A DNA stretch of 64,000 bases from positions 1-64,000 of the IMG/VR virus record IMGVR_UViG_3300022723_000184; one strand, written 5' to 3'. Below are positions 33,809-63,200 of this stretch, one piece after another. The stretch is from a virus. The notes below the pieces were generated by a model, which was not told where the DNA came from, did no database searches, and worked only from the letters and a program-made list of their open reading frames with translations. The first letter of the stretch is position 1, and the number at the start of each line of letters is the position of its first letter. The position numbers and the translations under genes are program-made.

Positions 33809-36800
33809 GTGACGACCATCTCGAACAACCTGTTCGACCAGGACCCTGCCAACTCGATCCTCCCGGATCCGAGTTTTCCACAGCCCGTCCCCAAACCGGC
33901 TCCTCAGGAGGAAGAGCCGGAAATGCGGCGTTTTGGCGACCCGATTGCCACACGCCGCGCCATTTACGACAGGGTTTTCCAGGCGGCCCAGGAGATGGAG
34001 CCGGTCGTGGGCCAGACCCACACGCTGCGACTGTCCAACCTCAACTGGGCGGATCCCGAGGAATACTCCAAGCGGAAGCGGAAGGAAGCGATCCTCTCCG
34101 GCCAGACGCTTGGTCGCCGTCTTCGCGGGACCTGGGAGTTGGTCAACAACGAGACCGGTGAGGTCCAGGACCGCACGGACAAGACGGTCGCTCGCATCCC
34201 TTACGTGACGGGCAGCGGGACGTTCGTCCACCGGGGCAACGAGTACGCGATCAAGAACCAGCAGCGGCTGCGGGCCGGCGTGTTTACCCGGGTCAAGGAC
34301 AACGGGGAGGTCGAGGCCCACGCCAACATCCTCCGCGGCGGCCCGAGCCACCGGTACTTCCTGGACCCGGCCAAGGGTGTGTTCTACATGCGCCTCGGCC
34401 AGGCCAAGATCCCAATGATGCCCCTGCTCAAGGCGATGGGTGCGACCGACGCCCAGCTGCGTGAGGCTTGGGGCCCGGAGATCCACGCCGCCAACTACGG
34501 GGCCAACGACGCCAGCGCCCTGGTCAAGCTCAAGGAGAAGATCCTCAAGGACCGCTCGGCGAAGCAGGAGGAACTGGTCTCGGCCTTCAACCAGATGGAG
34601 CTGGACCCGGAGGTCACGCAGCGGACGCTGGGCCAGCCGTACGAGAACATGGGCCTCGACACGCTGCTCGACACGTCCAAGAAGCTGCTGGCGGTCAGCC
34701 GGCAGGAGGCAGACGTCGACGACCGCGACCACCTGGCCTACCAGACGTTCCTGGGTCCCGAGGATCTGCTCGCCGAGCGGATCCGCAAGGACCGGGGCGG
34801 CGTCCGCCGCAAGCTGCTGTGGAAGCTGGCCCGAGAGGGCAACCTGAGCAAGTTGCCGGCCGCCGTGCTCCAGGACCAGGTGGACAGCGCCCTGCTCGAA
34901 TCGGGCCTGGGTCAGGCCCTCGAAGAGATCAACCCGGCCGAGGTCTTCGACAAGCAGACCCAGATCAGCCGGATGGGTGAGGGCGGCATCCCGTCGCTGC
35001 AGGCGGTGCCCGACGAGGCCCGCGGCGTACAGCCCAGCCACATGGGCTTCATGGACCCGCTGCGCACCCCCGAGTGTTACGACGAGCAGACGGAGGTCAT
35101 GACGAAGCAGGGATGGAAACCGTGGCCTTCCGTTACCGAGAGTGATGAGTTCGCTTGTCTGGTGGACGGTCGTCTGGAGTTTCATCTCGCAGACAAACTG
35201 GTGTCGTACCGGTACGTCGGGCAGATGTGTGGCGCGAAGACAGCCTTGGTCGACTACCTGGTCACGCCGGACCACCGCATGTACGTTCGCCGCGGTTACG
35301 ATACACCTCACTGGCGGATCGAGACGGCGAACGAGACGCATGAGGCTCATGTTCGGATTTTGAAATGCGGCGGCCACTCGCCTTACGTCGGGATGGCGTT
35401 CGATCCCGGTCTACCTGTCTTTGAGTCGCGGTCGAACAACAGCAAGGCGATCGACCTGGCGACCACGGACCCGTGCGACTGGGCGGAGTTTGTCGGGTGG
35501 TACCTGTCGGAAGGCAACTTGGCTGTTTCCGAGTCTAGACAGTCTTATAAGGTCATGATCACTCAGAGCCCGGAAGCGAACCCGGAGAACCATACCCGGA
35601 TCCGGGACTTGTTGGATCGTCTACCGTTCGACTGGTCTTTCTGTAACCACGAGAAAGCATTTGTCGTGAGCCGCCGCCACCTTTATGAGTGGGCCAAACC
35701 GCTAGGAAAGTGTGACGACAAATTCATTCCCGCTCGTTGCTTCGATTGGCCCGAGGAAGCTCGTCGATCGTTGTTGGAGGGTCTGTTACTGGGCGACGGC
35801 CGTAAGGCAGTTAAAGGCGGCAGAGTGGGCCGGCCCACACAGTACTGTTCGACTAGCCGCAGGCTGGCTTATGACGTTCAGAGGCTGTTGTTCACCCTTG
35901 GTGTCTCGTCCCGGGTGGTATTCGAGCCGGACGAACGGGAGGATCACTATCTCGGATGCTGGGTCGTGCATATCCACGCGAGAACGCAGCGGCGAGTTGG
36001 TCGTGCTCATGCAGCTAAAGAAAGCGATTTCCACCTGGAGAGTTACGACGGTCATGTCTACTGCGCTTCTGTTCCTGGTGGGCTTTTGTACGTGCGTCGC
36101 AACGAGAGCTGCGGCATTTGGTGCGGCAACAGCTTCCGGGTCGGTGTCGACGTGCACCTGGCCCGCAATGCCCGCAAGGGGCGTGACGGCAAGCTCTACG
36201 CCCAGTTCCGTGACGCCCGGTCGGGCAAGGACGTGTGGCGCACGCCGCAGGACGTCGCCGACCTGGCCGTGGCGTTCCCCGGCTCCATGAAGTCGGAGGC
36301 CAGGCGGGTGCCGGCCATGAAGAACGGCCGGATCCGGTGGGTGCCCAAGGAGAAGGTTGACCTGGTGCTCAGCACCTTCGAGAACGCCTTCAGCCCGTTG
36401 GGCAACATGGTCCCGCTCAAGAGCATGGTGAAGGGCCAGCGGGTGGCGATGGCCAGCCGGATGAGCGTAACGGGTGACGCCTGGGTTGTAGTGCTGCGAA
36501 AATCTGGTGACGCCTATTACGGCCCGATACGAGATTACGTGTGGAGGAAAGGCGACAAGTCTCCGTCTATCGATAAGGTTACGCACCGGCTGGTGTGGAA
36601 ACCGGTGCGAGCTAAGCTAGTACACCGGAACACGAAACGTCTTATGCGGGTGACGGTTGATAGCGGTAGGAGCTTTGTTGCTACTGAGGATCACAGTTGC
36701 GTTACGCTAGGTAAATCTGGACGTCTTGAAAAGATTAAAACCGGTGATTTATCTAAAGGCCTACCCGTTCCTTATGCCGCGACGCTTGATTGCCCCGAGA

Positions 36801-39800
36801 CGTACCAGAAAACGTGGAATGTGCCGAACGGAAACAAGCACAACGCCCATCCGGGTGTCGCGTTTCCGTTAACACGGGATGTAGGCTGGTTTTTGGGGTT
36901 GTACGTTGCCGAGGGTTACGGGGTCGGCAAAGATGCTCGCGCTGTGGCGCTTGCTAACATCTCTCCCGAAGTGCAGACCAGGGTTTGCCGGTTTATGGCT
37001 GACATTGGTTTGTGCGTGAAGCCGTCTTCCGGCAGCGACGGGGTGAACGACCGGGTTGTTATCAACTGGCTGCAGTTATACAGAAAGTTGCGAGAGGATT
37101 TCGGGGACGGGGCTTATAACAAAAGGCTTCCCGCCTGGGTGCATTTTTCGCCGAAAGCGTTCCGGGAAGGTCTGTTGTCGGGATACATGGCTGGCGATGG
37201 GATCGTATCGAAACCAGTAGCCCGTTCAACAACAACCGGCGGCGGCAGCCGCAGCCTGGACCTGGTCAACGGGTTGACGCTTCTTTGTGCGTCACTCGGT
37301 ATTTCAACGTCTGTGTCCTCGCCCTGGGTTAATACCGGCCCGGGAGGATCCCGGGTGCAACAACACAAGTTCACGATACGTAAAGAGCACCAACATCTAC
37401 TCCCCGTGATCGGCCACCCGGAAAAAGACAAAAAAATGCAACGGTCGTCGTGGTCGGGCAAGCGGTCTTACGACTGGATACCGATTTTCGACGACCTTAG
37501 ACCTATGTTTAATCGGCGAACGCAGCGTCGCGACAACCGCCGCCGGCGGCTGGATAACCGTTATATGGGTCGCTTGGATCGCCGCGACGTAATCGACTTA
37601 TTTGGGGATGACGCGGAGTGGGCTACCAGGGGTTGGTCGTCGTCGTCTGTCTGGTGGGATCGGGTGAAGCGGGTGGACGAAGTCAGTTCGGACCATGAAT
37701 TCGTTTATGACCTTGACATGGAAGACAACGTGTTCCTGGCCAACGGCGTGTTTGTGCACAATACAACGCAGGCCCTGCCCGTGGCTAACCCCGAGGCGCC
37801 ACTCGTCCAGTCGGCGGTTCCCGGCAGCGGCGGGGCAATCAGCTTCGAGGACGAGTACGGATCGCACATGGGTGCGGTGCGTGCCGATCAGCCCGGTCGC
37901 GTGGTGGCGGTCACCGACGACGAGATCACCGTGCAGTACGCCGACAACAGCCGGGCGAACATCGAGCTGTACAACAACCATCCGTACAACCGTAAGAGCG
38001 TGACCGGTGACACCGAGATTCTGATCCGCAGAAGGGCGGAATCTGGGCGGTCGAGGCAAGGGCTTTACATCTGGCGAGGCCCGATTCGCGAGTATCAGTG
38101 GCGAGACGACGACTACGTCCTTTCGGTGTGTCCGAAAACGAAGCAGTCTGCGTGGAAGAAGGTCATCGCGAAAACGGCTCATCCCAACGACAAACGTCTG
38201 TTGCGGGTGAAGACAGCGTCCGGCCGTCATGTTGTGGTGACCGAAGACCACAGCCTGGTGACGATGGGTAGCGATGGAACACTCGTGCCTATCTATCCGG
38301 ACGATTGCCAGGTCGGCAAGACACGGTTGCCTGTGGCTAAGATCCCCGAAATGGTCTCGTCGAAGACGTATCCGGGCAAGTCTCGTAACGACGGTCGCGT
38401 GGTCGGCCTATACCTTGCGGAAGGGCACTGCCCGCCCAGTCAGCCAAACCTGGTGACGATTTCGGTTGAGCCGGACGATCGGGCAGAGACGGTACTGGCT
38501 TTGTTGAGAACCGTTTCGGAGGGCTACGAGCCGTTCCGAAACGGCGGTACCGTTTGTATGACGGCGCCGAAACTGGTCAAGAGGTTGGTGAAACAGTTCG
38601 GACACCGGTCACACAACAAGAAGATCCCGTCGCGATTCCTTCGGTACCCAGCCGAGTTCCGAGAAGGACTGGTCGAAGGGTACATGGGTGGCGACGGTTG
38701 CTTTTGGAAGGACGGAAACGGCGGGACTAATTTGGAGGCGACCAGTGTTTCGCGGGAGCTTCGGGACAACCTCGTCGACCTGCTGCTGTCGTTGGACGTG
38801 TTCACGACGCTGAAGACGTCGCCAAGGAAAAAGTACAAGGATGCGTGGCGGGACGGGTATCGCTTCCGCGTCTTGTCCGGGGAGCTACACAAGCTGCCCC
38901 GATGGTTCGTGTACGACGATCGAGAGGAACGGTTGAACGAATCCATCGATTCGCAGTACCGAGCTTCCGTGTACGAGATGGTTCCGGTCCCCGATAAAGA
39001 AGCCAGGACGCTCGTCTATGCCGGCTTCGACAAGACGCCGCTGCAAGGAAAAGTTGCCAAGCACAGGCTGGCCGGATCCAAAAGCGTGTTCGGCAAGTGG
39101 GGTGTCTCTGACGTCATGTGGGATGAGATCGTGGCGATCGAATCGGCGGACCACGAAGAGGAGGTCTACGACCTTTCCGTGCAAGACTCGGAGATGTTCG
39201 CTGTTTGTCACGGCCTGGTCGTACACAACACATACATCCATCAGACGCCGACGGTCCGGCCTGGCCAGTCCTTCAAGGCCGGAGACCTGCTTGCCCGGTC
39301 GAACTACACCAACGACCAGGGCGCGACGGCCCTGGGCGTCAACGCCCGCGTTGCTTACGTGCCGTGGGGCGGCAAGAACTTTGAAGACGCCATCGTGATC
39401 TCGGACTCCATGGCCAAGCGGTTGAGTTCCGAGCACATGTACCAGCACGACCTTGAGATCAGCGCCCGGACCCGCACTGGCAAGAACACCTACCTCTCGC
39501 TGTTCCCCGGCAAGTACGACAAGAAGACCCTGGAAAACATGGACGCTGACGGCGTCGTCAAACCAGGCACAGTCGTGCAACACGGGGATCCGCTAATCCT
39601 GGCTGCCGAAGAGCGGAGCCGGGCGCTGAACAAGGTTCACAAGAAGCGTCAGCCTGGCTTCCAAGACAACAGCATCACGTGGAAGCATCACGACGAAGGC
39701 GTGGTGACCGATGTGGTGAAGACCAAGAACGGCCCGGTCGTCTTGGTCAAGGGCCGGCAGGAGATGAAGGTCGGCGACAAGATGTGTTACGACCCGGAGA

Positions 39801-40831
39801 CTAGCCTACTCACGCGGCAAGGTTGGAAGCCTGTTGCGGAGGTTACGCTCGACGACGAGTTGGCGACGCTGAACCCGGAAACGGAAGAACTGGAGTACCA
39901 CAAACCAACTCACGTGCACTCGTTTGCTCACACGGGGGAGATGTACTACCTGAATACCAAGCACCTCAACATGCTGGTGACGCCGGAGCATCGCTTGTGG
40001 GTTGCTCGTCCGGGCCAGACCTACGGCGAGGTGACGGCTAAAGACTTCTACGAGTCGAAGGGCGAATGGCAGTTCAAGAAAGACTGCAAGTGGGTTGGCG
40101 AAGAACGCTTGTTGATGGAGTTCGAGCCGTACATCGCGAGGAACAGTCGAGAGCAAGTCCTGGAATCTGTACCCATGGACATTTGGCTCAGGTTCATCGG
40201 GTATTACCTGTCAGAGGGTCGAACTTGTCGTACTTCGAGCGGCGGGTATCAGGTGCAGATCAGCCAGTTCCGAACGTCTTCGGTTTGGGAGGACATTCAC
40301 GACACGCTGGTCGAGCTTGGTCTGCGTTTCTCGTACCGAGAAAACGAAAATAGGTTTGAGATCAACTCCAAGTGGTTGTACGGGGTGTTGCTGCCGTTGG
40401 GCAGCGATGCGTACTCGAAGCGAGTGCCGGAATACGTACAAGAACTGTGCTCTCGCCAGATCTCCGTCTTGTTCGATTCTTACATGGAAGGAGACGGACA
40501 TAAGGGGGCGTGCTGGGAGTTTGGAACGTCGAGCGAGCAGTTGGCTTTCGACCTTCAAGTGTTGTGTTTGAAGTTGGGCTGGTGTGTCAAGTTGAAGCCC
40601 GTCGACCGTGAAGACAACCTTCAAAAGAACCCTCACTGGCGGGGCCGAGTTAATCGTTCTCATCTGCGGCCTTGGTGGAAGAAAGGGCAGGCAAAGACCT
40701 ACGCGTCCAACGAAGAGAAGATGGTGCAGTACGACGGCGAGGTCTACTGCGTGACAGTTCCCAATCACATCGTTTATTGCAAGAGGGAGGACAAAACGTA
40801 CTGGTCGCTGAACAGCGGCCGGTACGGCTAG
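33809..40831 (+). CDS. RNA polymerase beta subunit, N-terminal and central part, with four inteins
   Basis: 2340 aa, of which about 800 are extein. GTG start with AAGGGG upstream. Beta landmarks in order: PSHMGFMDPLRTPE|SFRVGVD (equivalent of the HYGRxCPIETPEG motif), TTQALPVANPEAPLV (QAVP region), TYIHQTPTV, PWGGKNFEDAIVIS (the conserved MPWxGxNFEDAI) and EMKVGDKM|SGRYG (GDKMxGRHGNKG). Inteins occupy residues 423-774, 886-1318, 1397-1807 and 1993-2335. The frame stops at TAG 40829, five codons after intein 4, exactly where beta should read on into DKGVV. That sequence follows in another frame after a 5-nt insertion. The encoded beta is thus truncated at a catalytic-core motif unless rejoined. 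Confidence 0.93.
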   Translation: MTTISNNLFDQDPANSILPDPSFPQPVPKPAPQEEEPEMRRFGDPIATRRAIYDRVFQAAQEMEPVVGQTHTLRLSNLNWADPEEYSKRKRKEAILSGQTLGRRLRGTWELVNNETGEVQDRTDKTVARIPYVTGSGTFVHRGNEYAIKNQQRLRAGVFTRVKDNGEVEAHANILRGGPSHRYFLDPAKGVFYMRLGQAKIPMMPLLKAMGATDAQLREAWGPEIHAANYGANDASALVKLKEKILKDRSAKQEELVSAFNQMELDPEVTQRTLGQPYENMGLDTLLDTSKKLLAVSRQEADVDDRDHLAYQTFLGPEDLLAERIRKDRGGVRRKLLWKLAREGNLSKLPAAVLQDQVDSALLESGLGQALEEINPAEVFDKQTQISRMGEGGIPSLQAVPDEARGVQPSHMGFMDPLRTPECYDEQTEVMTKQGWKPWPSVTESDEFACLVDGRLEFHLADKLVSYRYVGQMCGAKTALVDYLVTPDHRMYVRRGYDTPHWRIETANETHEAHVRILKCGGHSPYVGMAFDPGLPVFESRSNNSKAIDLATTDPCDWAEFVGWYLSEGNLAVSESRQSYKVMITQSPEANPENHTRIRDLLDRLPFDWSFCNHEKAFVVSRRHLYEWAKPLGKCDDKFIPARCFDWPEEARRSLLEGLLLGDGRKAVKGGRVGRPTQYCSTSRRLAYDVQRLLFTLGVSSRVVFEPDEREDHYLGCWVVHIHARTQRRVGRAHAAKESDFHLESYDGHVYCASVPGGLLYVRRNESCGIWCGNSFRVGVDVHLARNARKGRDGKLYAQFRDARSGKDVWRTPQDVADLAVAFPGSMKSEARRVPAMKNGRIRWVPKEKVDLVLSTFENAFSPLGNMVPLKSMVKGQRVAMASRMSVTGDAWVVVLRKSGDAYYGPIRDYVWRKGDKSPSIDKVTHRLVWKPVRAKLVHRNTKRLMRVTVDSGRSFVATEDHSCVTLGKSGRLEKIKTGDLSKGLPVPYAATLDCPETYQKTWNVPNGNKHNAHPGVAFPLTRDVGWFLGLYVAEGYGVGKDARAVALANISPEVQTRVCRFMADIGLCVKPSSGSDGVNDRVVINWLQLYRKLREDFGDGAYNKRLPAWVHFSPKAFREGLLSGYMAGDGIVSKPVARSTTTGGGSRSLDLVNGLTLLCASLGISTSVSSPWVNTGPGGSRVQQHKFTIRKEHQHLLPVIGHPEKDKKMQRSSWSGKRSYDWIPIFDDLRPMFNRRTQRRDNRRRRLDNRYMGRLDRRDVIDLFGDDAEWATRGWSSSSVWWDRVKRVDEVSSDHEFVYDLDMEDNVFLANGVFVHNTTQALPVANPEAPLVQSAVPGSGGAISFEDEYGSHMGAVRADQPGRVVAVTDDEITVQYADNSRANIELYNNHPYNRKSVTGDTEILIRRRAESGRSRQGLYIWRGPIREYQWRDDDYVLSVCPKTKQSAWKKVIAKTAHPNDKRLLRVKTASGRHVVVTEDHSLVTMGSDGTLVPIYPDDCQVGKTRLPVAKIPEMVSSKTYPGKSRNDGRVVGLYLAEGHCPPSQPNLVTISVEPDDRAETVLALLRTVSEGYEPFRNGGTVCMTAPKLVKRLVKQFGHRSHNKKIPSRFLRYPAEFREGLVEGYMGGDGCFWKDGNGGTNLEATSVSRELRDNLVDLLLSLDVFTTLKTSPRKKYKDAWRDGYRFRVLSGELHKLPRWFVYDDREERLNESIDSQYRASVYEMVPVPDKEARTLVYAGFDKTPLQGKVAKHRLAGSKSVFGKWGVSDVMWDEIVAIESADHEEEVYDLSVQDSEMFAVCHGLVVHNTYIHQTPTVRPGQSFKAGDLLARSNYTNDQGATALGVNARVAYVPWGGKNFEDAIVISDSMAKRLSSEHMYQHDLEISARTRTGKNTYLSLFPGKYDKKTLENMDADGVVKPGTVVQHGDPLILAAEERSRALNKVHKKRQPGFQDNSITWKHHDEGVVTDVVKTKNGPVVLVKGRQEMKVGDKMCYDPETSLLTRQGWKPVAEVTLDDELATLNPETEELEYHKPTHVHSFAHTGEMYYLNTKHLNMLVTPEHRLWVARPGQTYGEVTAKDFYESKGEWQFKKDCKWVGEERLLMEFEPYIARNSREQVLESVPMDIWLRFIGYYLSEGRTCRTSSGGYQVQISQFRTSSVWEDIHDTLVELGLRFSYRENENRFEINSKWLYGVLLPLGSDAYSKRVPEYVQELCSRQISVLFDSYMEGDGHKGACWEFGTSSEQLAFDLQVLCLKLGWCVKLKPVDREDNLQKNPHWRGRVNRSHLRPWWKKGQAKTYASNEEKMVQYDGEVYCVTVPNHIVYCKREDKTYWSLNSGRYG
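35075..36130 (+). mobile_element. Intein 1 (beta, TPE|S site)
   Basis: 352 codons. N-terminal block CYDEQTEVMTKQGW (Cys1) and C-terminal ...IWCGN followed by Ser+1. LAGLIDADG-type motifs FVGWYLSEGN and LLEGLLLGDG mark a homing endonuclease. The penultimate residue is Gly, not His. Related to inteins 4, 5 and 6. Confidence 0.9.
36464..37762 (+). mobile_element. Intein 2 (beta, RM|TTQALP site)
   Basis: 433 codons, the longest here. Begins SVTGDAWVVVLRKSG (Ser1), ends NGVFVHN before Thr+1. Block B ATEDHS; LAGLIDADG-type motifs FLGLYVAEGYG and LLSGYMAGDG. Its codons are visibly richer in A and T than the flanking extein, a sign of later arrival. Confidence 0.9.
37997..39229 (+). mobile_element. 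Intein 3 (beta, YNRK|TYIHQTP site)
   Basis: 411 codons. Begins SVTGDTEILIRRR (Ser1), ends HGLVVHN before Thr+1. Block B VTEDHS; endonuclease motifs VVGLYLAEG and LVEGYMGGDG. Sister of intein 2. Confidence 0.9.
39785..40813 (+). mobile_element. Intein 4 (beta, VGDKM|SGRYG site)
   Basis: 343 codons. Begins CYDPETSLLTRQGW, ends KTYWSLN before Ser+1; penultimate Leu. Endonuclease motifs FIGYYLSEGR and LFDSYMEGDG. The beta frame is broken 16 nt downstream of its end. Confidence 0.88.
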
Positions 40832-43800
40832 GTGATAAAGGAGTTGTTGCCGCGATCATCCCCGACAACCAGATGCCCCACGACAAAGCGGGCAGCCCGT
40901 ACGAGGTGCTGCTCAACCCCCTTGGGGTCATCAGCCGCTGTTACGACGAGCAGACTGAGTTCTTGACGGATCGAGGCTGGGTGTTTGGTCGTGACGTTCA
41001 TCAAGACGACCAGTTCGTTTGCTACCACGTCTGGACCGAGAACCTGTACACAATGCCACAGTTGGAGAAGTTTCACGTTGCGGACTACACAGGCAAAATG
41101 CTGAAGTTTGAGAACAAGCTCATGGACTTCTGCGTCACGCCGAATCACCGCATGTGGGCTGCTTGTGGATACCCCGGCGCGCCATGGCAGGAAGTGACGG
41201 CCGAGCGAATTTTCGACCGAAACGGGTGGAAGGTGCCTGTGGCCGGAAACCCGGTACCCGGTGAAGATCGGGACTTCGTGTTGCCGCAGATCGAGCGCCA
41301 CGTGAAGGATACGCAGTCGTCTGTAGAAGAAATTGTGATTGAAGCCGGGGACTGGGCCGAGTTCCTTGGTTGGTACGTGGCCGAAGGTAACGCCGACGAG
41401 AAAGTCCACATCTCTCAGAGTATCGAGGCTAATCCGGAAAACTGTAGCCGGATCGAGGAGCTGTTGAATCGCCTTCCGTTCGCCTGGAACTACAACGCGA
41501 AGAACACGCAGTTCCACATCACATCGAAGCGTCTTTGTGAGCACCTGAAACCGTTGGGGCTGTGTGATGAGAAGCACGTCCCGGACTGGGTCTTCTCGCA
41601 GAGCCCAGAGACACGGCAGCGGTTCCTAGATAGCTATCTGGCCGGTGACGGCGACAAAGATCAGACGAACAGAGACCATGCGTATTGGGGCGCCGGTACA
41701 ACGTCAAAACAGTTGGCGCAGGACCTCCAGCGACTGCTTATCTACCAAGGCTATTCGGCGAATACGTCGAAGCAGCCTTCGGGTATGTGGCGGGTCGGTA
41801 TTCACGCTAAACGGCACCGAATCTTGGAGAAACAGAACTGGGCCGAAGTTGACTACGACGGTAAGATCTATTGCCCGACGGTGCCAACCGGGTACATCGT
41901 GACTCGCCGCAACGGAAAGGTTTTGATCGCGGGCAACACCAACCCGGCCCAGATGGTGGAGGCCGCGTTGGGCAAGCTCGCCAAGCACCGCGGCCAGCCG
42001 ATCAAGGTCGAGGACTTCGACGAGAACATCGAGGACATGACTGAGTGGGCCAGGGATCAGCTGCGTAAGGCGGGGCTCTCGGACACCGAGGACATTGTCG
42101 ACCCTAGCACCGACAAGAAGATCAAGGGGATCAACACCGGCAACCGCTTCTTCATGAAGCTGCACCACACGGCGGAATGTTTTGACGATCAAACCGAGGT
42201 ACTTACAAAGCGAGGGTGGGTCTCGTGGGTTGATGCGCGAGACGATGATGAGTTCGCGACGCTTGATGGCGGCGACCTTGTTTATGAGCAGGCCGAGCGG
42301 GTAGTTCGCAGCGAGTACTACGGGCAATTGTGTTGTTTTGAGGGCAGATACCTTGACTATGCCGTTACCCCGAATCACCGACTCTGGTTGAAATCTTATA
42401 ACTGGCAAAAGGAGTGGGGGTTTCGCGAGGCCGGTGAGGTTCATGGGCGGCGGTTCTCTGTGCAACAATTCGGTCCCTCGGCGGCAGGTAACAATCCCGC
42501 AACCACTAAGATCGGCGATGACGACGTGGATTGGGATGATTACGCGGAGCTTGTTGGGTGGTGGGTCACTGAGGGGTACGCCAAGGTTACGCGTCGCCGG
42601 GCCTGCGTGATGATCTATCAAAGTGAATCCGCGAACCCGGAAAAACTTGCTAGGATTGAGGAGCTTGTGGCTCGTTTGCCGTGGCCCTGGCATTATTACA
42701 AAGTAAAAGGCGAGATTTTCGGTGTTGGCATTAGTAGTAGGGCACTTGCTGAGCATTTGAAGCAGTACGGAACACATTCACACAATAAGCGCTTACCGCG
42801 GCATCTCCTTGAGGGAGGATTGACCGGGCGACAGCGACTATTCGCGTCGATGATGGATGGCGACGGCAATCGGCAGACCACGCCGACTGGAAACATGGAA
42901 AGATTCACGACGACCTCTAAGGGGTTGGCAGATGATTTTCAGGAGTTGTGTGTTCGATCCGGATTCGGTGCGGTTATCCGCCCGGTTAAGCCGAGGAAAG
43001 AGACGCATTATTTGCCTGCGTGGACTTGCGGCGTCGCGTTGTCGCGAACAACCGCCCAGATCGACGGTGACCGCAATCTGGGCGGGTTCTCCCTTCGCAT
43101 GTACAAAGGCGTTGTTTATTGCGCAACGATGCGAACGGGGATGCTATATGTTCGGCGTAACGGTAAGCCGATGTGGAGCGGTAACTCCAAAGGACAGGGA
43201 CGTGGATCCGGAGGTTATACGGCTGAGGATGCACCGGCGAAGGGCGGCGAGACGGGCAGCAAGAGAATTGCGCTGCTCGATGTTAACGCCCTCCTCTCCC
43301 ACGGCGCTACAGAGGTTCTTCGGGATGCTTCTGCGATTCGCGGGCAGAAAAACGAAGACTACTGGCTGCAGTTCATGCAGGGCTACACACCTAAGCAGCC
43401 GAAGGTCCCGCTCGTCTACGAGAAGTTCGTCAACGAGCTGAAGGGCGCCGGGATCAACGTGGTGCGTGACGGGACGCAGACCAACATCATGGCGCTGACC
43501 GATGACGACATCGATCAGCTGGCCGGCGACCGCACGATCAAGTCGGGCGAGACCGTCCACTTCGACAAGGACCTCAAGCCGATCCCGGGCGGCCTGTTCG
43601 ACCCGGCGGTGACCGGCGGTCACCACGGTCGGCGGTGGGCCGCGATCAAGCTGGCCGAGCCCATGCCCAACCCGGTGATGGAAGAGCCGATCCGTCGAGT
43701 GCTCGGGCTGACTGGCAAGAAGTTCCAGGACATTATCGCGGGCAAGGACACGCTGCCCCGTTACGGCACCGGGCTGCGGGCGATTTCCGAGGCACTCGAA

Positions 43801-44877
43801 AACATCAACCTCGACCGCGAGATCCTGAGGACGCAGGGCGAGATCAAGAACGGGACGAAGGCGGCACGCGACGCCGCCGTGCGAAGGCTCGGCTACCTGA
43901 AGAGCGCCAAGCGGCTCAACATCCACCCGCGACAGTGGATGCTCAAGAAGGCCCCGGTCCTGCCTCCGCAGTTCCGCCCGGTCAGCGTGATGACCGACAA
44001 AGAGATCCCGCTCGTCGCCGATCCCAACTTCCTCTACAAGGAGTTGATCGAGGCGAACAACAACCTCATCGACATGAAAGGTGCGGTCGGCGATGAAGTG
44101 GGTGACGAGCGGCTGGCGGTCTACAACGCGTTCAAGGCGGTGACAGGGCTCGGCGACCCGATCACGCAGGAGTCGAAAGAGAAGAACGTCCGCGGCATCC
44201 TCAAGAGCGTGTTCGGCTCCAGCCCGAAGTTCGGCACCGCGCAGCGGAAGCTCATCGGGACGACGGTCGATAACGTGGGGCGTGCGGTGATCACGCCGAA
44301 CCCCTCGCTCGACATGGACAGCGTCGGCCTGCCCGAGGACCGGGCGTTCGAGGTGTACAAGCGGTTCCTGGTCCGCCGGCTCAAGCGGAAGGGGATGCCT
44401 GTGGCCCAGGCCATGCGGCACGTCAACGAGAAGTCGAGCTTGGCCCGAGACGTCTTGATTGAGGAGATGGAGCAGCGGCCGGTGATCATCAACCGGGCGC
44501 CCGTCCTCCACCGGTTCGGGATCATGGCCTTCAAGCCTCGCCTGGTGAAGGGCAGCACCCTGCAGGTGAGCCCGCTGGTCGTGAAGGGGTTCAACGCTGA
44601 CTTCGACGGCGACGCCATGAACTACCACGTGCCGACGGACGAGGAGGCCCGCAAAGAGGCTCTCGACCGGATGCTCCCCAGCCGCCAGTTGCTGAGCCCG
44701 TCCGACTTTAAGTCGCCGGTCCACGCTCCGAGCCAGGAGTACGTCGGCGGTCTGTACCACGCCACCGCAAGCAAGAGCGAGCGGCCGGTTCGGACGTTCG
44801 CCAGCCAGAAGGACGCGATCGCCGCGTACAGGCGAGGCGAGATCAGCATCGACGACCAGGTGCAGATCATCGGGTAG
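40831..44877 (+). CDS. RNA polymerase beta C-terminus fused to beta' N-terminal half, with two inteins
   Basis: The homologous frame resumes at GGT 40831 and is open upstream to 40672, but no good start is visible: an AAAGGAG at 40837 has no in-frame ATG/GTG/TTG behind it until ATG 40873. About 680 extein residues. Beta part: DKGVVAAIIPDNQMP, LNPLGVISR, TGSKRIALLDVNALLSHGA. Beta' part: GGLFDPAVTGG, RWAAIKLAEPM, PPQFRP, VIINRAPVLHRFGIMAF, and the catalytic NADFDGDAM whose three Asp bind Mg. It ends at RRGEISIDDQVQIIG, just before the beta' TVGR segment that begins the 46858 gene. No beta' zinc-finger cysteines are seen. Confidence 0.92.
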   Translation, partial: GDKGVVAAIIPDNQMPHDKAGSPYEVLLNPLGVISRCYDEQTEFLTDRGWVFGRDVHQDDQFVCYHVWTENLYTMPQLEKFHVADYTGKMLKFENKLMDFCVTPNHRMWAACGYPGAPWQEVTAERIFDRNGWKVPVAGNPVPGEDRDFVLPQIERHVKDTQSSVEEIVIEAGDWAEFLGWYVAEGNADEKVHISQSIEANPENCSRIEELLNRLPFAWNYNAKNTQFHITSKRLCEHLKPLGLCDEKHVPDWVFSQSPETRQRFLDSYLAGDGDKDQTNRDHAYWGAGTTSKQLAQDLQRLLIYQGYSANTSKQPSGMWRVGIHAKRHRILEKQNWAEVDYDGKIYCPTVPTGYIVTRRNGKVLIAGNTNPAQMVEAALGKLAKHRGQPIKVEDFDENIEDMTEWARDQLRKAGLSDTEDIVDPSTDKKIKGINTGNRFFMKLHHTAECFDDQTEVLTKRGWVSWVDARDDDEFATLDGGDLVYEQAERVVRSEYYGQLCCFEGRYLDYAVTPNHRLWLKSYNWQKEWGFREAGEVHGRRFSVQQFGPSAAGNNPATTKIGDDDVDWDDYAELVGWWVTEGYAKVTRRRACVMIYQSESANPEKLARIEELVARLPWPWHYYKVKGEIFGVGISSRALAEHLKQYGTHSHNKRLPRHLLEGGLTGRQRLFASMMDGDGNRQTTPTGNMERFTTTSKGLADDFQELCVRSGFGAVIRPVKPRKETHYLPAWTCGVALSRTTAQIDGDRNLGGFSLRMYKGVVYCATMRTGMLYVRRNGKPMWSGNSKGQGRGSGGYTAEDAPAKGGETGSKRIALLDVNALLSHGATEVLRDASAIRGQKNEDYWLQFMQGYTPKQPKVPLVYEKFVNELKGAGINVVRDGTQTNIMALTDDDIDQLAGDRTIKSGETVHFDKDLKPIPGGLFDPAVTGGHHGRRWAAIKLAEPMPNPVMEEPIRRVLGLTGKKFQDIIAGKDTLPRYGTGLRAISEALENINLDREILRTQGEIKNGTKAARDAAVRRLGYLKSAKRLNIHPRQWMLKKAPVLPPQFRPVSVMTDKEIPLVADPNFLYKELIEANNNLIDMKGAVGDEVGDERLAVYNAFKAVTGLGDPITQESKEKNVRGILKSVFGSSPKFGTAQRKLIGTTVDNVGRAVITPNPSLDMDSVGLPEDRAFEVYKRFLVRRLKRKGMPVAQAMRHVNEKSSLARDVLIEEMEQRPVIINRAPVLHRFGIMAFKPRLVKGSTLQVSPLVVKGFNADFDGDAMNYHVPTDEEARKEALDRMLPSRQLLSPSDFKSPVHAPSQEYVGGLYHATASKSERPVRTFASQKDAIAAYRRGEISIDDQVQIIG
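40939..41937 (+). mobile_element. Intein 5 (beta C-terminal region, GVISR|T site)
   Basis: 333 codons. CYDEQTEFLTDRGW start, KVLIAGN end before Thr+1. Endonuclease motifs FLGWYVAEGN and FLDSYLAGDG. Shares EANPEN and RIEELLNRLP with inteins 1 and 6, so these are paralogous insertions. Confidence 0.9.
42178..43185 (+). mobile_element. Intein 6 (beta C-terminal region, HHTAE|SKGQG site)
   Basis: 336 codons. CFDDQTEVLTKRGW start, KPMWSGN end before Ser+1. Endonuclease motifs LVGWWVTEGY and LFASMMDGDG. Codons richer in A/T than the extein. Confidence 0.9.
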
Positions 44878-52800: not shown

Positions 52801-53604
52801 AAGTTCGGGCGGTTCGCGGGCAAGGCTGGGCGACTCGCTGGTCCGTTGGGCCTGGCGGTCGCCCCGCTGGAGTTCGGGATCCGTGGCGGCAGCGAGCTTT
52901 ACGACATGGCCACGGGTCAGGACACCTTCGGGAACATGGTCGACCAGCGGCTGCGGGACGCTGGCAACTGGCAGGGGCCGACGGGTTATGCGGGCGCCGT
53001 GCTCAACACACCGTTCAGTCCGTCGAGCGTGGCGGCCTTGGGCAAAGCCAAATACGACCTGGCGATGGCCCCCATCCAATCGTTTGCCCAACGACGCCAA
53101 TCGCTGGCCGCGGGCAACCGGCTCAACGAGCAGCTGGCCGAGAACCGCGAGGCGGCGGGTGGCGTCGACGAGCTGCTGCAGCACGCTCCGAAGGACATCG
53201 CCAGCCGGTACGCCCGGAAATACGTGGACGACACGCCCTGGTACGGTCTGGGCGGGTTCAATCCGTTCGTGAACGATCAGGGCCGCATGACGTGGGTCGA
53301 CAAGGGGACCGGCGAGGAAGCTGGTTCCGGGGCCATGCAGGCGATCGAGCAGGTCAAACAGCAGAACCAAGATCGTGAAGCGGCACAGGAGGCCGCGAGG
53401 TACGCGAGGCAAAAACCGCAGCAGGCCGCGGTGGTCCAGGCGAAACCGGCTGCTCCGGCACCCGCTCAAGAGGCCCGTGCGGCGTCGCTCCTCGGCAACC
53501 CGATCTACCGACAAGTGCTCAGCCAGGTCAGCGCCCAGAGCCCGGAAATGGGAGCGATGCTCCTGCTGTCAGGTGCCGATCCGTCTCATCTTATGGGCCG
53601 ATGA
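46858..53604 (+). CDS. RNA polymerase beta' C-terminal half with three inteins and a virion-like extension
   Basis: 2248 aa, about 1090 extein. CGGAGG precedes the ATG. Beta' landmarks: MKATVGQLLVNDALPE (TTVGR region), SYSEGLSPAEYWAGTYGARKGVM|STKFATQEAGFLSKQL (bridge-helix/trigger-loop motif FREGL..YF...HGARKGL.DTALKTA), GENIGLAAAQAL|SEPLSQAQL|SAKHSGG (GExVGxIAAQSxGEPxTQxTxxTFH), and FRQAMHEAGIHASRRNVELLGRGL (C-terminal Rpb1_5). Inteins occupy residues 197-576, 703-1099 and 1109-1488. From about residue 1785 a 460-aa Ala/Gly-rich tail resembles the structural proteins nearby, so the enzyme may be packaged. The last codons (SHLMGR) are encoded by repeat copy 4. Confidence 0.93.
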   Translation: MKATVGQLLVNDALPEDMRDYQMVLDKKGVRNLMADLARKHPEDYREVSHKLSQIGWRSAQESGGYSFGLEHMLKSKTGRETRQRIQKKINEILADDRLTDEQREQLILKHIGKEREAMQSGIFDEARAAKNPLAMQVLGSGRGNPMNLSSLLGSDLLYTDQRDRLIPIPVLRSYSEGLSPAEYWAGTYGARKGVMCLAKGTQVLMADYTDKPIEKVKPGDWVMGSDRQGRMTPVRVIRRYYNGVQPCYRYRFRKNSCRLPSSHRTLVATEKHKVLATVKAGRPGSTYAHRSIYVPTPLPLEAARLLKNPVKNEYVATPAAGEAGEQSRVREPSALLYGLMLGDGCMAESTRGRYLLSCNDPLLLDDLREYISLFDVFLDKAGGDNYNYTLAGDGGAAVAVDLKTRLGEKLAHDKELPEGCFAWDDVSVGQLLGGLFSTDGSITGRNGNATIKLTLSSRRMVEQVQRLLELRLGIWSGGLIFTAKEKKKNATHDQWGFAVSHAASVARFFARVPLYGKKRVQAKRIAATMKPDHSNGSPGFKIYDREPAGEIATYDLEVDHPDHLFVLSSGLVVSNSTKFATQEAGFLSKQLNQMGHRLVVTDEDGDGEPDSLRGLPVDVDDPDSAGSLLAHDAGGYKRNTVITPKILHNLRRQGLKRILVRSPTVGGSPEGGIYSRDAGVREKGGLPGRGENIGLAAAQALCLSGGTRVQMANGEVKAVEDVKPGDVVLGCSVDGVLRPVPVLDACFSGIKSCVKALFRRGTGKAAKDNLLELVATPEHKILSEIVVRSGRGSVKRVPYFDPVAVRPLGTKIPHEKRSGGDRFCAKLASSFDDTGLGVQPLAFLLGLVIGDGCYSGSANCVGFSCYDPVLAADVGAYLKPLNFEIKNNTDNEYRVVDTTHRQVKRREDGSWYRSRLIELLRVEGMFGQTSSIKTLPKSVHSWDNASVAALIAGLLVTDGYVISTGGLGFGSNSKCLLDGVRQLLGLRWGVWGSSVISSTKKRADGDEYAPNWRFTVNRRDDVNLLRSILPVAGVKRGRLDSLLSKWNSKRRSARGAPRVKGRCTRISLERVGELPTYDLYIAHPDHLFVLANGLVVSNSEPLSQAQLCLAAGTLVRMADWTVKRIEQVRADEQIMGADKSGRLFPVRVVRVYDNGERECVRTVFREAKTKQHVDLVSTGDHKLLSKTRHWAIPSERVEHGVFPVARKCVGYSAKMPFAVVNDHGCAEPFAGLCGLLLGDGGYTVSVHGVHWSCFEPDLVEEMQPYLAGLGLKATKLQGHEGHEGYYRISQVEDAIRQDPETGRVLPGDRNPALIWLKQHRMYGKYAHEKEIPEEIWSWDQNSVARLLGCLFATDGSVYPPTQRPDELYINFSSTSLELAKQVKELIQVRFAIHSSSIGSHKGKRKRKLYSFTITRKEQVRRFASRIAVPARKGQMLADYLPKLQEDESTEYFHRQRQEPVGTVATYDLEVDHPDHLFVLANGLIVSNSAKHSGGVAGSEKAVSGFDYINQLIQVPKKFKGGAAHAQVDGIVSRIEEAPAGGKYVVINNEKHYVGPDFSLKVKRGDEIEAGDVLSEGIPNPSEVVRHKGVGEGRRYFTQAFRQAMHEAGIHASRRNVELLGRGLIDHVRMTDEYDQYVPDDVVPYSALEHRWQPREGSRRVPYKQAVGKYLERPVLHYTIGTKIRKSMLKDFEDFGVEELETHDEPPPFEPEMIRGMYSVQHDPDWMTRMYGSGQKKSLLSAVHRGGTSDELGTSFVPGLARGVDFGRQGLVTPPAPPQKMGSDMQKEAEGMWGTGAIPGSPNFNLQQQARQSYNVGNSMLSSMRGGGGVGPATAGDANRFRQYLSSFAAAPGPTGAPAGQAAASVARPAAATAGSAATGNGLTTADWHAWSAGPMGAGAATKAGTRPLAAAALRYAPAVAKAPGIRNLVGAMARPSAAAQALSGVKPQMPGTVSKWLRPGYHQYATKVLGQSHNLAQGAGKFGRFAGKAGRLAGPLGLAVAPLEFGIRGGSELYDMATGQDTFGNMVDQRLRDAGNWQGPTGYAGAVLNTPFSPSSVAALGKAKYDLAMAPIQSFAQRRQSLAAGNRLNEQLAENREAAGGVDELLQHAPKDIASRYARKYVDDTPWYGLGGFNPFVNDQGRMTWVDKGTGEEAGSGAMQAIEQVKQQNQDREAAQEAARYARQKPQQAAVVQAKPAAPAPAQEARAASLLGNPIYRQVLSQVSAQSPEMGAMLLLSGADPSHLMGR
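47446..48585 (+). mobile_element. Intein 7 (beta', ARKGVM|STKFA trigger-loop site)
   Basis: 380 codons. CLAKGTQVLMADYTDK start, DHPDHLFVLSSGLVVSN end before Ser+1; penultimate Ser. Endonuclease motifs LYGLMLGDG and LLGGLFSTDG. Closely related to inteins 8 and 9. Confidence 0.92.
48964..50154 (+). mobile_element. Intein 8 (beta', AAQAL|SEPLSQ site)
   Basis: 397 codons. CLSGGTRVQMANGEVK start, HPDHLFVLANGLVVSN end before Ser+1. Endonuclease motifs LLGLVIGDG and LIAGLLVTDG. Confidence 0.92.
50182..51321 (+). mobile_element. Intein 9 (beta', SQAQL|SAKHSGG site)
   Basis: 380 codons. CLAAGTLVRMADWTVK start, HPDHLFVLANGLIVSN end before Ser+1. Endonuclease motifs LCGLLLGDG and LLGCLFATDG. Only nine extein codons (50155-50181) separate it from intein 8. 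Confidence 0.92.
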
Positions 53605-53638: not shown

Positions 53639-53686
53639 AAGCACTTTCGAAAAGACGTATGCCGACGCAAAGCCCCGAAGTAGAGC

Positions 53687-53716
53687 TTGGCAATCGTTTC
53701 AGAGCGGGTTTATAAT
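53687..53716 (+). promoter_or_regulatory. Sigma70-like promoter TTGGCA-18-TATAAT
   Basis: TTGGCA (53687-53692) and TATAAT (53711-53716), 18 bp apart and 31 bp before the ATG at 53747. The best consensus-like promoter in the window. It sits where repeat copy 4 has lost its TATAAC box. Confidence 0.7.
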
Positions 53717-53746
53717 CGCTGAGACGGACAAAATCAGGAGAGCGGC

Positions 53747-56284: not shown

Positions 56285-56287
56285 ACC

Positions 56288-56917: not shown

Positions 56918-56929
56918 GCAGACCACCGC

Positions 56930-59333: not shown

Positions 59334-60261
59334 CGAACAACTCGACATGGCTTCGATGACGCTCGCCAAGCGGGCGGCCGTCGTGCGCATGCTCCCCCCG
59401 ACCCGAGAGAAGCGGGCCCAGACCGGGTCCAACAGTTTCCTGAGCAACCTGGGCGCGATGTGGGCGGCGACCCCCGACGCGGCCAAAGGTGCCCTGATGG
59501 GTGCGGGTCTCGGCGGGGTGGGCGGTTACCTGAGCCAGGCGGGCCGGGACGAGGAAGACAGGCGGCCATGGGGCTCGGCGTTGACCGGGGCCCTGGCCGG
59601 CGGCGCCCTCGGCGGTGGCATGGGCTTGGCGGCACCCCGTCTCCGCGAGCTGTACGACACGCATCAGCTGGACCGTCAGATCGCCGAACTTGAGGCGAAG
59701 ACTCAGCCCGGCGTGGCCAACGAACTGGGACACAAGGCGGTGGGCGCAGTGAGCGGCGCTGCCCCCGGCCTCCTGGGCCTCGGCGCGTACCACGCCCACC
59801 GTAACCTGCCGGAGTACGTTGGGCAGGGCCGCTGGTTCGGCGGGCGTATGGTGAACCCCGACGACCTGGCGGCCAGGGTCCAGGCCGGCACGGCCAGTGC
59901 CGCCGACCGGAAGTTCGTTGAGCGGATCACTGAAGGAGGCCGCAAGTCGCTTTCCGAAACGCTCAAGAGCGGTTACGGCGCGTCGGGAGGTAAGGGCGGT
60001 CCGTGGTCCGCGACCAAGTTCACGCCGGGCGGGGCCCCGTACCTTCGTCGTGAGCACGGCTTCCTTCAAAAACTCCTCGGCAGCGGTCGGTACTACCCGA
60101 CTGGTACTGGACGGGCCAAGATACGGGGATCGCTCGGATCCATCGCCGCGTTCGCCCTGCCGATGCTCTTGCAGCGGATGGGTGAAAAGGCCATGCCCAG
60201 CGACGATTCGCGGCAGCTTCAGGAGCTGTACCGACAGCGTGCGGCGGCAGTCGCCAGGTAA
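59320..60261 (+). CDS. Glycine-zipper membrane-type protein
   Basis: 313 aa; starts inside the preceding gene. Two Gly/Ala-rich hydrophobic segments (about 60-80 and 92-112, GGALGGGMGLAAP) flank the linker GRDEEDRRPW, followed by a charged helix LDRQIAELEAK. The arrangement copies the partial protein at 1-282. A third hydrophobic segment lies near 145-160 and a fourth near 283-298. Not an enzyme by motif. Confidence 0.65.
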   Translation: MHSSDEQLDMASMTLAKRAAVVRMLPPTREKRAQTGSNSFLSNLGAMWAATPDAAKGALMGAGLGGVGGYLSQAGRDEEDRRPWGSALTGALAGGALGGGMGLAAPRLRELYDTHQLDRQIAELEAKTQPGVANELGHKAVGAVSGAAPGLLGLGAYHAHRNLPEYVGQGRWFGGRMVNPDDLAARVQAGTASAADRKFVERITEGGRKSLSETLKSGYGASGGKGGPWSATKFTPGGAPYLRREHGFLQKLLGSGRYYPTGTGRAKIRGSLGSIAAFALPMLLQRMGEKAMPSDDSRQLQELYRQRAAAVAR

Positions 60262-60273
60262 AGGAATACCGAC

Positions 60274-63200
60274 ATGTCCATGGTGAAAATCGTCGACCCT
60301 CGTGGCTGGAACTGGGACCGTCCCGTGGCCCAGGCCATCAAGGTTTCGAGTCGAGGTCTGATCGGCAACGACCGGTCTGACTTCCTCAAGACCGCGAGCC
60401 ATGAGTTCGTGGACATGATCGACAACATGAAGGTGGCCAAGGACGAGCAGCCGGTGCATTTGATTGCGCTCGGCGCCAGTGAGGCATATGGCTGCTTTCC
60501 TGCCGGTACCCCTGTCCGAATGTCTGACGGAACACTAAAGGCAATCGATCAAATTGCTGAAAACGAGTACGTTGTTGATCGTCTTGGTCGACCAGCCAAA
60601 GTGCTAAAAACATGGCAGAAACCGTGGGACGGTCCTGGAATCTCGCTGAAGGTAGAAGGGCTGTTAGACAATCTGGTGCAGACAGCTGATCATCGTTTTT
60701 ACGTGATCAAAGGGTCGCAGGTTGAATGTCTAATAGACAAGGCCAAGCACTGTAAACCGGATACCTGCCAACAGAACAAGATCTGTTCGACGCGTAATTG
60801 TGCCCGCGCATCGGTGTCGTACGACCCTGGGTGGGTAGAAGCCAAGGACATCGTGGCAGGTGATTACGTGTTGGCGGCTGTTCCGGACCGCGGTGTAGGC
60901 GAGCAAACATGGGGTTGGTCGAAGCCGTTGGCCCGCGTCATCGGCTACTTCCTGGCAGAAGGCTCTTACGAGAAATCTAAAAGCGACGGTACCCGGAAAG
61001 CACTGAGATTCGATTTTGGATTCGACGATGAACCCCATATTATCCCGGACTTTTTGGATTGCGCTTCGGCCCTCCTCGAAGACTATGACGGGCTGACGAT
61101 CAAAGGCCCATACCGCAGCGAAGACAAGCACACTATTACATACGCTCTTCGGCACGACGCTCTGGTGTCGCGAGTGCATGCTGCTGTCGGAGAGTACTCT
61201 ACCGGGAAGCGATTGTATGGGTCTGTTTTCTCACAACACCCGGACATAATTGCCGAAATGGTCGGGGCCTATCTGGACGGGGACGGTACTTGTCCTCGCT
61301 ACGCCAGGCGGGATTTGGGTACCGACGAAGGTAGGTTCGCGTGTGGTACGGCTTCACGCGATCTCGCGATCGATCTTCAATGGCTCCTTGGAAGGCTGGG
61401 CGTACCGGCGACGGTCTGTGCTGTGTCCGAAGACGCTTTGGCCGAAAACGCCTCGGGATTTTATCACGTAGGTTTTTCTAATACCGCCGGCTCGTTCTTG
61501 CAAGGGCGGTGCTCCAAGTACCGGCGGGAGGAACCTCGACAGAGTAAGCAGAGATCGTTCGCTTGGAATGGTTACATTGCTCGCCCGGTACGTGAGGTGA
61601 ATCCGGTGAGGTTGGAAGAGCCTGTGTTCAACCTGGAAGTGGAAGGTGATCATACTTACACCGTCGGTAACGGCGTGGTTGTTCACAACTCAAACCGAAA
61701 CGGCGACGGCTTCAAGGAGGCCACCTGCAAGAAGTACCACCACACGTTCAAGAAACACGCACGGTGGTACCGTAACCACCGCAACAAGAACCCCGAAAAG
61801 TCCTACGGCTACATCAAGGCCTCGGCCTACAACCATCCGATGCGTCGTGTCGAGTTGCTGACGATGCTCAACAAGACCAAGGAGGCCGCGGAGCGGAACG
61901 GCGGCCTGGTCGCCGACAAGGAGATGGCCAAGATCGCGGCCGGTGACGACATACCCGTAAGTATGGCTTGCTTTCCGGGGGATACGTTGGTGCGTAGGTG
62001 GACCGGAGAACACGTACCCATCGCTGAAATTTGCCACGGCGATCGGGTGCGGACTCATCACGGGAATGAGGGGGAAGTGACGCTGACGTCTCGCCGCCTT
62101 TACGCCGGGGATTTCGCGAGAATTTACGCTTACGGTCTGCCTGACGCGTTGTCGGCGACTGAAAATCACAGGATTTGGGTTCGCCCCGCGCTGAAAGGAA
62201 AAACACCTCGGTGTCCGGTGTGTGGAAAGCAATTCAAATCTTTGGGGTGCCATTTCCGAGAACAGAAGGACGCGCAGCACGCGTTGGCTGCGGCAAACTA
62301 CGGCCGGTACGCCGAGGGCTGGGTAGAGGCAGGCCAGGTCGTAGCCGGCGATTTTGTCCGCGTTCCGATCGACCAGGAAGTGCTCGAAGAGGGCGACGCG
62401 ACCTATGCGGCCTTGCTGGGTCTCTACTTGGCGGAAGGTAACACTTGGCAATACGCAAGGTACGAGAAGTCTCCGCTAGACACCTATCGCGGTGTCGATT
62501 TCTCGTTCCACCGAGAAGAAAAGGAACTGGCGGACAAAACGATCGGACTGCTTCACGAACTGGGTTATCGTCGTACGCACGTATATTTGAGGAAGAACAA
62601 CGTGCGACTGGTTCGTGTTTGCTCGGCAGAGTTGGCGGATCGTCTGGAGGTTGACGGAGGCAAAGGAGCCTGGGGCAAGCGAATTTCTCCGGGCATCATG
62701 AAGTGGTCGCCCCCGACGCAAAAGCTGATCCTTGAGAACTGGCTGGAAGGTGACGGTACGTTCAGCCGCCAACACCAAACGGTAGTCGGCGTGTCGGTAT
62801 CCCGCGAACTATGTCGGCAGATGGCGGAGATCGGCTGGCGCAACGGTATTTGCGTCAAACTCGGGAGACAAAAAAGAGGGAAAGGGTGCGACACCTGTAC
62901 GATTCGTCGCTCCGAAGTGAGTAGGCTTTCGTTGTCTAAGGTCCCGGCCGATTTCTTTCCGCCTTCGCCTGTGTCTGTTTCCTGCGGGCACCTGAAAAAC
63001 CAGGCAACGGCCGCCACGACTAAGCCACGTATTTCTTCCAAACCGATGACGTTTATCGAAAACGGTTTCCTTTACTTGCGGGTAAGGAAAGTAGAGCGGT
63101 TCTACGACGAGACGTATGTGTACAACATGACCGTCGAGTCGGACCACTCGTACACTGCCAACGACGTGGGCGTGTCCAACTGCCGCGTCCCTTACGACGA

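Follow-up and report, generated by a model that had tools for sequence, protein, structure and literature searches.

How can a phage obtain a working RNA polymerase (RNAP) from genes that are interrupted nine times by inteins and once by a stop codon? This question is raised by the IMG/VR virus record IMGVR_UViG_3300022723_000184 (G000; 201,946 bp), whose first 64 kb, hereafter the window, were analysed (other loci are cited by L number). Based on sequence comparison it is proposed, with a probability of roughly 0.6, that the RNAP and a prohead-protease-like gene of this phage carry eleven homing inteins and that the ribosome bypasses the stop codon located after the fourth of them, in which case a working polymerase would be the product of nine splicing events and one ribosomal bypass.

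Eleven inteins in an RNA polymerase and a protease-like gene

Four long open reading frames (ORFs) were translated and searched against profiles (Pfam, NCBIfam), and the intein boundaries were set at residue level. The ORFs encode RNAP beta and beta' domains together with intein, Hint and LAGLIDADG domains. Eleven inteins of 333-433 aa, adding up to 12,504 nt, were delimited (Table 1), nine in the RNAP (six in the gene RPOA and three in RPOC2) and two in the protease-like gene. In alignments, all eleven display Cys1 or Ser1, block A, a TxxH block B, a terminal Asn and Ser, Thr or Cys at position +1, as well as two LAGLIDADG motifs in which the acidic residue is retained. An earlier note on this DNA had described these inteins at the same places, with nine of them in the RNAP, the splice blocks, the paired motifs and a total of about 12.5 kb, and this description is borne out by the residue-level delimitation, the profile matches and the alignment of the excised exteins. 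Its figure of about 3 kb of extein has to be corrected: the exteins of the intein-bearing genes comprise 3,009 codons (9.0 kb), and the former value seems to be a count of residues. The four genes it listed exist as four ORFs but correspond to three genes, since the beta and beta' ORFs (33809-40831 and 40672-44877) make up a single RNAP gene that is divided by a stop and a gap.

Variation at the penultimate His is known among inteins; here this residue is present in inteins 2, 3 and 10, its place being taken by Gly or Leu in inteins 1, 4, 5 and 6 and by Ser in inteins 7-9 and 11. The inteins with the weakest profile matches (1 and 4-6) constitute one subfamily, and inteins 7 and 9 were recognised by profile within their ORF and by similarity to intein 8. 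The AlphaFold model of intein 4 (mean pLDDT 95.2) has a predicted intein fold, its best matches in the Protein Data Bank (PDB) being the endonuclease-bearing inteins TliVMA (E=4.9e-19), PhoVMA, PI-PkoII and PI-SceI. An Rfam search of the region gave no matches, so that no known group I intron is involved. Based on these features, the eleven inteins are predicted to excise themselves.

Motifs of bacterial-type multisubunit RNAPs (NADFDGD, the bridge helix and the trigger-loop region) were found, and in this phage group beta is fused to the N-terminal part of beta' (~1,480 aa), the C-terminal part of beta' being encoded by a second gene. Once the inteins are removed, the exteins align continuously through every RNAP site with bacterial beta/beta' and with intein-free relatives. 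Site 4 divides GDKM/SGRYGDKG (bacterial counterpart GDKM/AGRHGNKG), site 7 lies within the GARKG of the bridge helix, and sites 8 and 9 fall within the AAQSIGEPGTQLTMRTFH region, leading into the trigger loop. With site 4 in the KMxGRHGNKG motif, site 7 in the bridge helix and sites 8 and 9 in the trigger-loop region, the view of the earlier note that transcription depends on protein splicing is soundly reasoned; if all nine inteins must splice, phage transcription would be gated post-translationally. Inteins 8 and 9, both full-length and of one subfamily, are separated by nine extein codons (SEPLSQAQL, 50155-50181).

Searching viral contigs with the beta' part as query yielded 27 loci. In the closest phages (L007, L008 and L016; 60-65% identical) both RNAP genes are single uninterrupted ORFs free of inteins, and inteins at the same sites as in the window are present in other phages. 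By pairwise comparison the eleven inteins form four subfamilies (1, 4, 5 and 6; 2 and 3; 7, 8 and 9; 10 and 11; ~27-36% identity), and a tree of the first of these places the sequences together by insertion site, most sites receiving full support. Local duplication was discarded as the origin of the many inteins, as the grouping is by site and not by genome, which excludes recent duplication in place. Altogether, the sequences indicate that the inteins are mobile, site-specific alleles homing to fixed sites across the phage population, each of them combining a Hint splicing domain with a LAGLIDADG homing endonuclease and probably drawn from a pool of alleles. Among relatives with the complete gene, RPOA has at most five large insertions (54 relatives, vs six here) and RPOC2 at most one (28 relatives, vs three here), counts that for the relatives include some non-inteins; nine RNAP inteins exceeds the number in any relative measured, which supports the earlier note in calling the density exceptional. 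That the inserts are instead ordinary lineage-specific RNAP insertions, of the kind that exists in the gene of relatives at residue ~250, has a negligible likelihood in view of the splice blocks, the LAGLIDADG motifs, the predicted fold, the empty sites and the allelic inteins at the same sites.

Table 1. Features of the locus, with positions in the window unless the record is named; a slash in a motif marks a splice point.
Feature	Position	Strand	Remarks
RPOA, fused RNAP beta and beta' N-terminal part	33809..44877	+	six inteins, one stop plus gap; rpoB, rpoC models
Intein 1 (PLRTPE/C...GN/SFRVG)	35075..36130	+	alleles at this site in many phages
Intein 2 (Ser1; ASRM/S...HN/TTQAL)	36464..37762	+	Intein_splicing E=3.8e-12; allele in L099
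Intein 3 (Ser1; YNRK/S...HN/TYIHQ)	37997..39229	+	Intein_splicing E=3.1e-15; alleles in L018, L021, L027
Intein 4 (VGDKM/C...N/SGRYG), bears 5' arm of junction hairpin	39785..40813	+	AlphaFold model, PDB intein matches
Hairpin 5' arm, last codons of intein 4 (CGTACTGGTCGC)	40797..40808	+	
Hairpin 3' arm, extein codons for SGRYG (GCGGCCGGTACG)	40815..40826	+	
Proposed take-off codon GGC (Gly of SGRYG)	40826..40828	+	GGY then stop in all five alleles
Conserved in-frame stop TAG	40829..40831	+	the other alleles have TGA or TAA
Proposed landing codon GGT (+5 nt)	40831..40833	+	reading would restart at GAT 40834
Intein 5 (GVISR/C...GN/TNPAQ)	40939..41937	+	68% identical allele in L088
Intein 6 (HHTAE/C...GN/SKGQG)	42178..43185	+	allele in L090
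RPOC2, C-terminal part of RNAP beta' with bridge helix and trigger loop, plus extra C-terminal extension	46858..53604	+	three inteins
Intein 7, bridge helix (GARKGVM/C...SN/STKFAT)	47446..48585	+	allele in L027
Intein 8 (AAAQAL/C...SN/SEPLSQ)	48964..50154	+	
Intein 9 (SQAQL/C...SN/SAKHSGG), 27 bp past intein 8	50182..51321	+	
Prohead-protease-like gene	60274..63999 (to 64167 of record)	+	two inteins; intein-free homologues in relatives
Intein 10 (EAYG/C...HN/SNRNGDGF)	60493..61689	+	in prohead-protease-like gene
Intein 11 (VSMA/C...SN/CRVPYD)	61969..63180	+	insertion at this site in L027 contig too
Twelfth intein, terminase large subunit (ADQN/CFVGD...LTHN/CYDEVQ)	record 141208-142299	-	outside the window

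A stop codon and a short gap after intein 4

The ORF 33809-40831 terminates five codons past intein 4 (...N/SGRYG-stop), and the continuation DKGVV lies in another frame. In intein-free relatives SGRYGDKG is continuous, RPOA homologues in relatives are single unbroken ORFs (45-61% identity), and the RPOA extein aligns with bacterial beta without gaps at the junction. After TAC, the DNA reads GGC TAG GT GAT in the window (+5 nt), GGT TGA AGGC GAT in L147 (+7 nt), GGC TGA GGT GAT in L088 (near-copies L087, L089, other samples; +6 nt), GGT TAA CTAAGC GAT in L086 (+9 nt) and GGC TAA CGAT GAT in L152 (+7 nt). The stop stands directly 3' of the Gly codon in all five alleles, with three stop identities, and the net inserts of 5, 6, 7, 7 and 9 nt cover all three frames. 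It is present with every intein of the intein 4 type that was found, and is absent from the sister-type inteins at site 4 (L078, L079, L099, L135 and L145) and from all empty alleles. A sequencing or assembly error could be suspected, as the record is a metagenomic assembly and the window taken alone presents a +5 indel, but the same position with differing gaps in contigs from several metagenomes makes this explanation hardly credible. An exact-pattern search retrieved no near copy of the window junction; the pattern hits in L168 and L169 are due to chance, with no RNAP or intein there, and the 11 matches of a junction scan of the genome contigs were all recognised as chance by translation.

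Sequence beyond the stop behaves as coding. Over the 27 codons directly past the gap, the proportion of synonymous differences between alleles (pS 0.38-1.01) exceeds that of nonsynonymous ones (pN 0.14-0.38), evidencing that these codons are under purifying selection, which points to translation of the downstream frame. In every allele this frame stays open over ~460 codons or more, and its homology extends to wherever the gene or contig ends or the next insertion begins. Each of the five cassette-bearing genomes or fragments has one RNAP copy, and no second copy was found in them. These observations bear on the view that the insert is a scar or immunity mark at the DNA level against homing endonucleases, or a deactivating change, the RNAP copies being non-functional. 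Indeed, ~15 bp separate the insert from the homing site, a homing intein moves together with it, and the 50-nt bypass insert of T4 is believed to give protection from a nuclease (PMC5009743). Nevertheless, with the downstream frame open and under purifying selection and a single RNAP copy per genome, a dead gene, which would not retain the hairpin described below, is quite improbable; protection and bypassing are moreover compatible, as proposed for T4.

If the downstream frame is translated, the question is how the ribosome reaches it. Gene fission would imply that the stop ends a first polypeptide at SGRYG and that the rest is initiated separately near DKG (by a non-standard or coupled start), the parts then assembling. 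The variable identity of the stop fits this explanation, under which only termination counts; phage RNAPs are often split (PMC7598289), and a split intein is present in this gene in a relative. However, in L147, L088 and L086 no ATG, GTG or TTG precedes DKG in its frame, and the first downstream start would drop 8-13 conserved residues that are under purifying selection. The break would also sever the KMSGRYGDKG active-site motif, and whichever of the three frames the gap produces, the outcome of reading stays exact. Fission is regarded as unlikely.

Ordinary recoding, either stop readthrough or a -1/+1 frameshift, is very improbable. Readthrough would suffice in L088 and L086, which are in frame, but a single site shows three different stops and net frame changes of -1, 0 and +1, there is no slippery heptamer, the record has no tRNA gene and hence no suppressor, and a motif whose length never varies would gain extra residues. 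A -1 frameshift as the reading of the ORF break was ruled out by the +6, +7 and +9 inserts of the other alleles.

In the bypassing model that we favour, a ribosome with peptidyl-tRNA-Gly on GGY would leave this codon at SGRYG-stop, slide 5-9 nt forward past the stop and land on the triplet preceding GAT. SGRYG/DKG would then be made without extra residues, restoring the active-site motif of beta, and such a jump does yield this sequence in 5/5 alleles. RPOA would comprise 1479 aa after splicing and bypass, and the junction-spanning peptides of the bypass product would be of the YGDKGVVAAIIPDNQMPHDK type. The triplet before GAT is GGT in the window and in L088, GGC in L147, AGC in L086 and GAT in L152, that is, GGY (a wobble match to the take-off codon) in three of the five, the other two being one A-for-G change away. 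This match is taken as support and not as proof, because the ancestral extein had GGN at this position.

The peptide R.DKTYWS.N-SGRYG, which leads up to the proposed take-off site, is conserved and might act as a stimulatory nascent peptide of the T4 gene 60 kind. Upstream of the take-off codon, the last codons of intein 4 and the first extein codons can pair across the splice junction. A stem of 12-13 bp (12 bp in the window) is present in all five alleles, 5'-CGUACUGGUC(G/A)C ... G(C/U)GGCCGGUACG-3', and ends at the first base of the Gly codon preceding the stop. Fold z values range from -3.1 to -4.8 across the alleles, and the pair cells are standard in 60 of 60, one pair changing from G-C to A-U in two alleles. 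Synonymous recodings folded as well as the natural sequence in only 13, 4, 6, 5 and 0 of 2,000 trials for the five alleles. Among 100 intein junctions, the five that bear the stop have the five longest junction-crossing stems (12-13 bp vs at most 10), and codon identity is 9/13 across the junction vs 13/115 in the rest of the intein (Fisher p=1.2e-5). By refolding behind the ribosome this hairpin may help the slide to go forward, a role also proposed for the T4 gene 60 stem-loop on the 5' side. A T4-like take-off hairpin containing the stop was also looked for and was not found past the stop, the gap being too short.

Several points weigh against bypassing. The only covarying pair of the hairpin was equalled by shuffled controls (352/500), the covariation not being significant because 11 of the 12 pairs are invariant; the five alleles are related and hence not independent draws, and the 5' hairpin could have a role at the DNA level. 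Downstream of the junction no stable conserved structure was found in the five alleles (z 1.22 to -0.44). The landing triplets AGC (L086) and GAT (L152) differ from the take-off codon, and the window and L152 do have upstream start codons in the downstream frame. Furthermore, we infer the jump, the role of the hairpin and the dependence of the polymerase on splicing plus bypass from nucleotide and protein sequences.

The distribution of intein 4 suggests how such an arrangement could spread. Its alleles form one clade, and the host polymerases do not. Between L147 and its near relative L091, in which site 4 is empty and the stop is lacking, nucleotide identity upstream is mostly 0.65-0.93 and reaches 0.92 adjoining the site, vs 0.72 and 0.63 over the ~120 nt directly downstream, and then returns to ~0.83. 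Homing in which the downstream flank and its gap are co-converted would be expected to produce this pattern, which is consistent with intein 4, the hairpin and the gap moving as one cassette. Because part of the bypass signal sits within the intein, a gene that lost the intein precisely would be left with a stop that cannot be bypassed, and the polymerase would be killed. It is therefore conceivable, as a tentative idea, that intein 4, the hairpin and the stop-plus-gap are a self-retaining mobile cassette that makes the host gene intein-dependent through the ribosome.

Neighbouring genes and related loci

Regarding the protease-like gene, the two inteins assigned by the earlier note to a likely maturation protease are both present. 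The protease label is tentative because no profile names a protease, the only match being phrog_2774 (unknown function). A major-head-protein gene (66854-67792) is located 2.7 kb downstream.

In RPOC2, a long Ala/Gly-rich C-terminal extension occupies 52300-53604; the corresponding ORFs of L007 and L008 are likewise long (1064 and 1208 aa), and most relatives stop near 615-680 aa. A 546-aa ORF at 28123-29763 is an unusual fusion, the first part of which matches large virion and antirestriction protein families and the second, phosphoheptose isomerase.

The terminase intein of the record has its splicing ends in frame and an open main frame; its LAGLIDADG-type endonuclease (LLLGCLLGDA ... IAY-stop-LMDDG) is in the +1 frame with a TAG and looks dead. 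In L090 and L092 (~9520-10010) a naturally split intein was observed within the same RNAP gene, with an N-part GGEMG/CFLGDTVL...DDLMEC-stop and a C-part that has its own ATG and ends in GVLVSN/SKRLSM, an arrangement which, as judged from sequence, implies that the polymerase gene is fractured and its products are joined by trans-splicing. In L148 (~13316-14850), and similarly in L074, L075 and L084, large insertions adjoin or interrupt the catalytic NADFDGD of beta' (extein residues 1386-1393); the one in L148 sits after GGDYDGD, terminates in LSN/T and is intein-like. Inteins two residues off site 5 (GIP/C vs GVISR/C) are present in L027 (near extein residue 834), L104 and L132, and two distinct homing sites appear to overlap at this motif. 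The beta insertions of L020, L021, L023 and L025 (extein residue ~245-270) are not inteins, and those of L020 and L021 look HAD-phosphatase-like (VAIDLDGTIATMY...).

Comparison with known systems

The enzyme resembles the phage-encoded multisubunit beta/beta' RNAPs of jumbo phages (PMC7598289) and of the mReC lineage (PMC7481178), and differs from them in that beta and the N-terminal part of beta' are fused and the C-terminal part of beta' is separate. Inteins are not mentioned in the texts of these two reports. As in the LAGLIDADG inteins of phages and archaea (TliVMA, PI-SceI; the TerL inteins of mycobacteriophages, PMC5050341), a Hint domain and a LAGLIDADG endonuclease are combined, insertion is at active sites and homing sites are allelic. 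Unlike in those inteins, six are found here in a single polypeptide and nine in the enzyme as a whole, one of them tied to a stop and a gap. Several inteins in a conserved gene are known from the ribonucleotide reductase of Trichodesmium (four) and RFC of M. jannaschii (three) (PMC1635734), and from the haloarchaeal MCM, for which it was claimed that neighbouring inteins hinder each other's homing (PMC10643990). Similarly, self-splicing elements are dense in crAss-like phage genomes, the densest one cited having 14 introns and 3 inteins (PMC7886860). In contrast to these cases, eleven inteins are found here in three genes, the closest pair 27 bp apart, and all LAGLIDADG acids are intact. Measured against the open literature searched, this is the largest number of inteins in one enzyme, and newer records may exist. 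With nine inteins whose motifs are intact, two of which lie 27 bp from each other, this enzyme offers a natural test of the mutual block of homing (PMC10643990).

Natural ribosomal bypassing, proven or suspected, is limited to very few cases, namely T4 gene 60, yeast mitochondria and possibly a Streptomyces phage (PMC5009743), and the open literature on inteins combined with translational bypass returned only unrelated papers. If the proposal holds, it would add a new case of a very rare mode of gene reading and link two kinds of mobile genetic parasite, and what bypassing minimally requires could be tested directly on five natural variants that differ in stop, gap and landing triplet. Short non-coding inserts are also bypassed in the mitochondrial byp elements of Magnusiomyces capitatus and, as suggested, in the terminase of Streptomyces phage Hau3 (PMC5009743), and landing is not always a perfect match in M. 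capitatus mitochondria either (PMC5009743). The byp elements are read by mitochondrial ribosomes under relaxed coding constraints, unlike the phage gene studied here, and Hau3 is thought to use a UUA codon instead of a stop, with no intein described (PMC5009743).

The closest parallel is T4 gene 60. In that system a homing endonuclease is adjacent and the insert possibly guards against cleavage (PMC5009743), synonymous removal of the 5' stem-loop is among the changes that lower bypassing, and structures that arise behind the ribosome are believed to bias it towards sliding forward (PMC11194080). Both genes have a Gly take-off codon, a proposed one in the present case, with the stop immediately next, a stem-loop just 5' of it that is selected beyond the protein sequence, an association with a homing endonuclease and a gap removed without trace, as it would be here. 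They differ in the length of the gap (5-9 nt added here vs 50 in T4), in the landing codon, matched in only 3/5 alleles here, and in the take-off stem-loop with the stop of T4, no conserved structure being found past the stop here. The endonuclease is in this phage an intein in the same reading frame, with half of the hairpin inside the intein, and the gene encodes an RNAP and not a topoisomerase, its bypass being deduced from sequence. By analogy, the junction after intein 4 probably works like gene 60 bypassing, and it is not classed as the same element.

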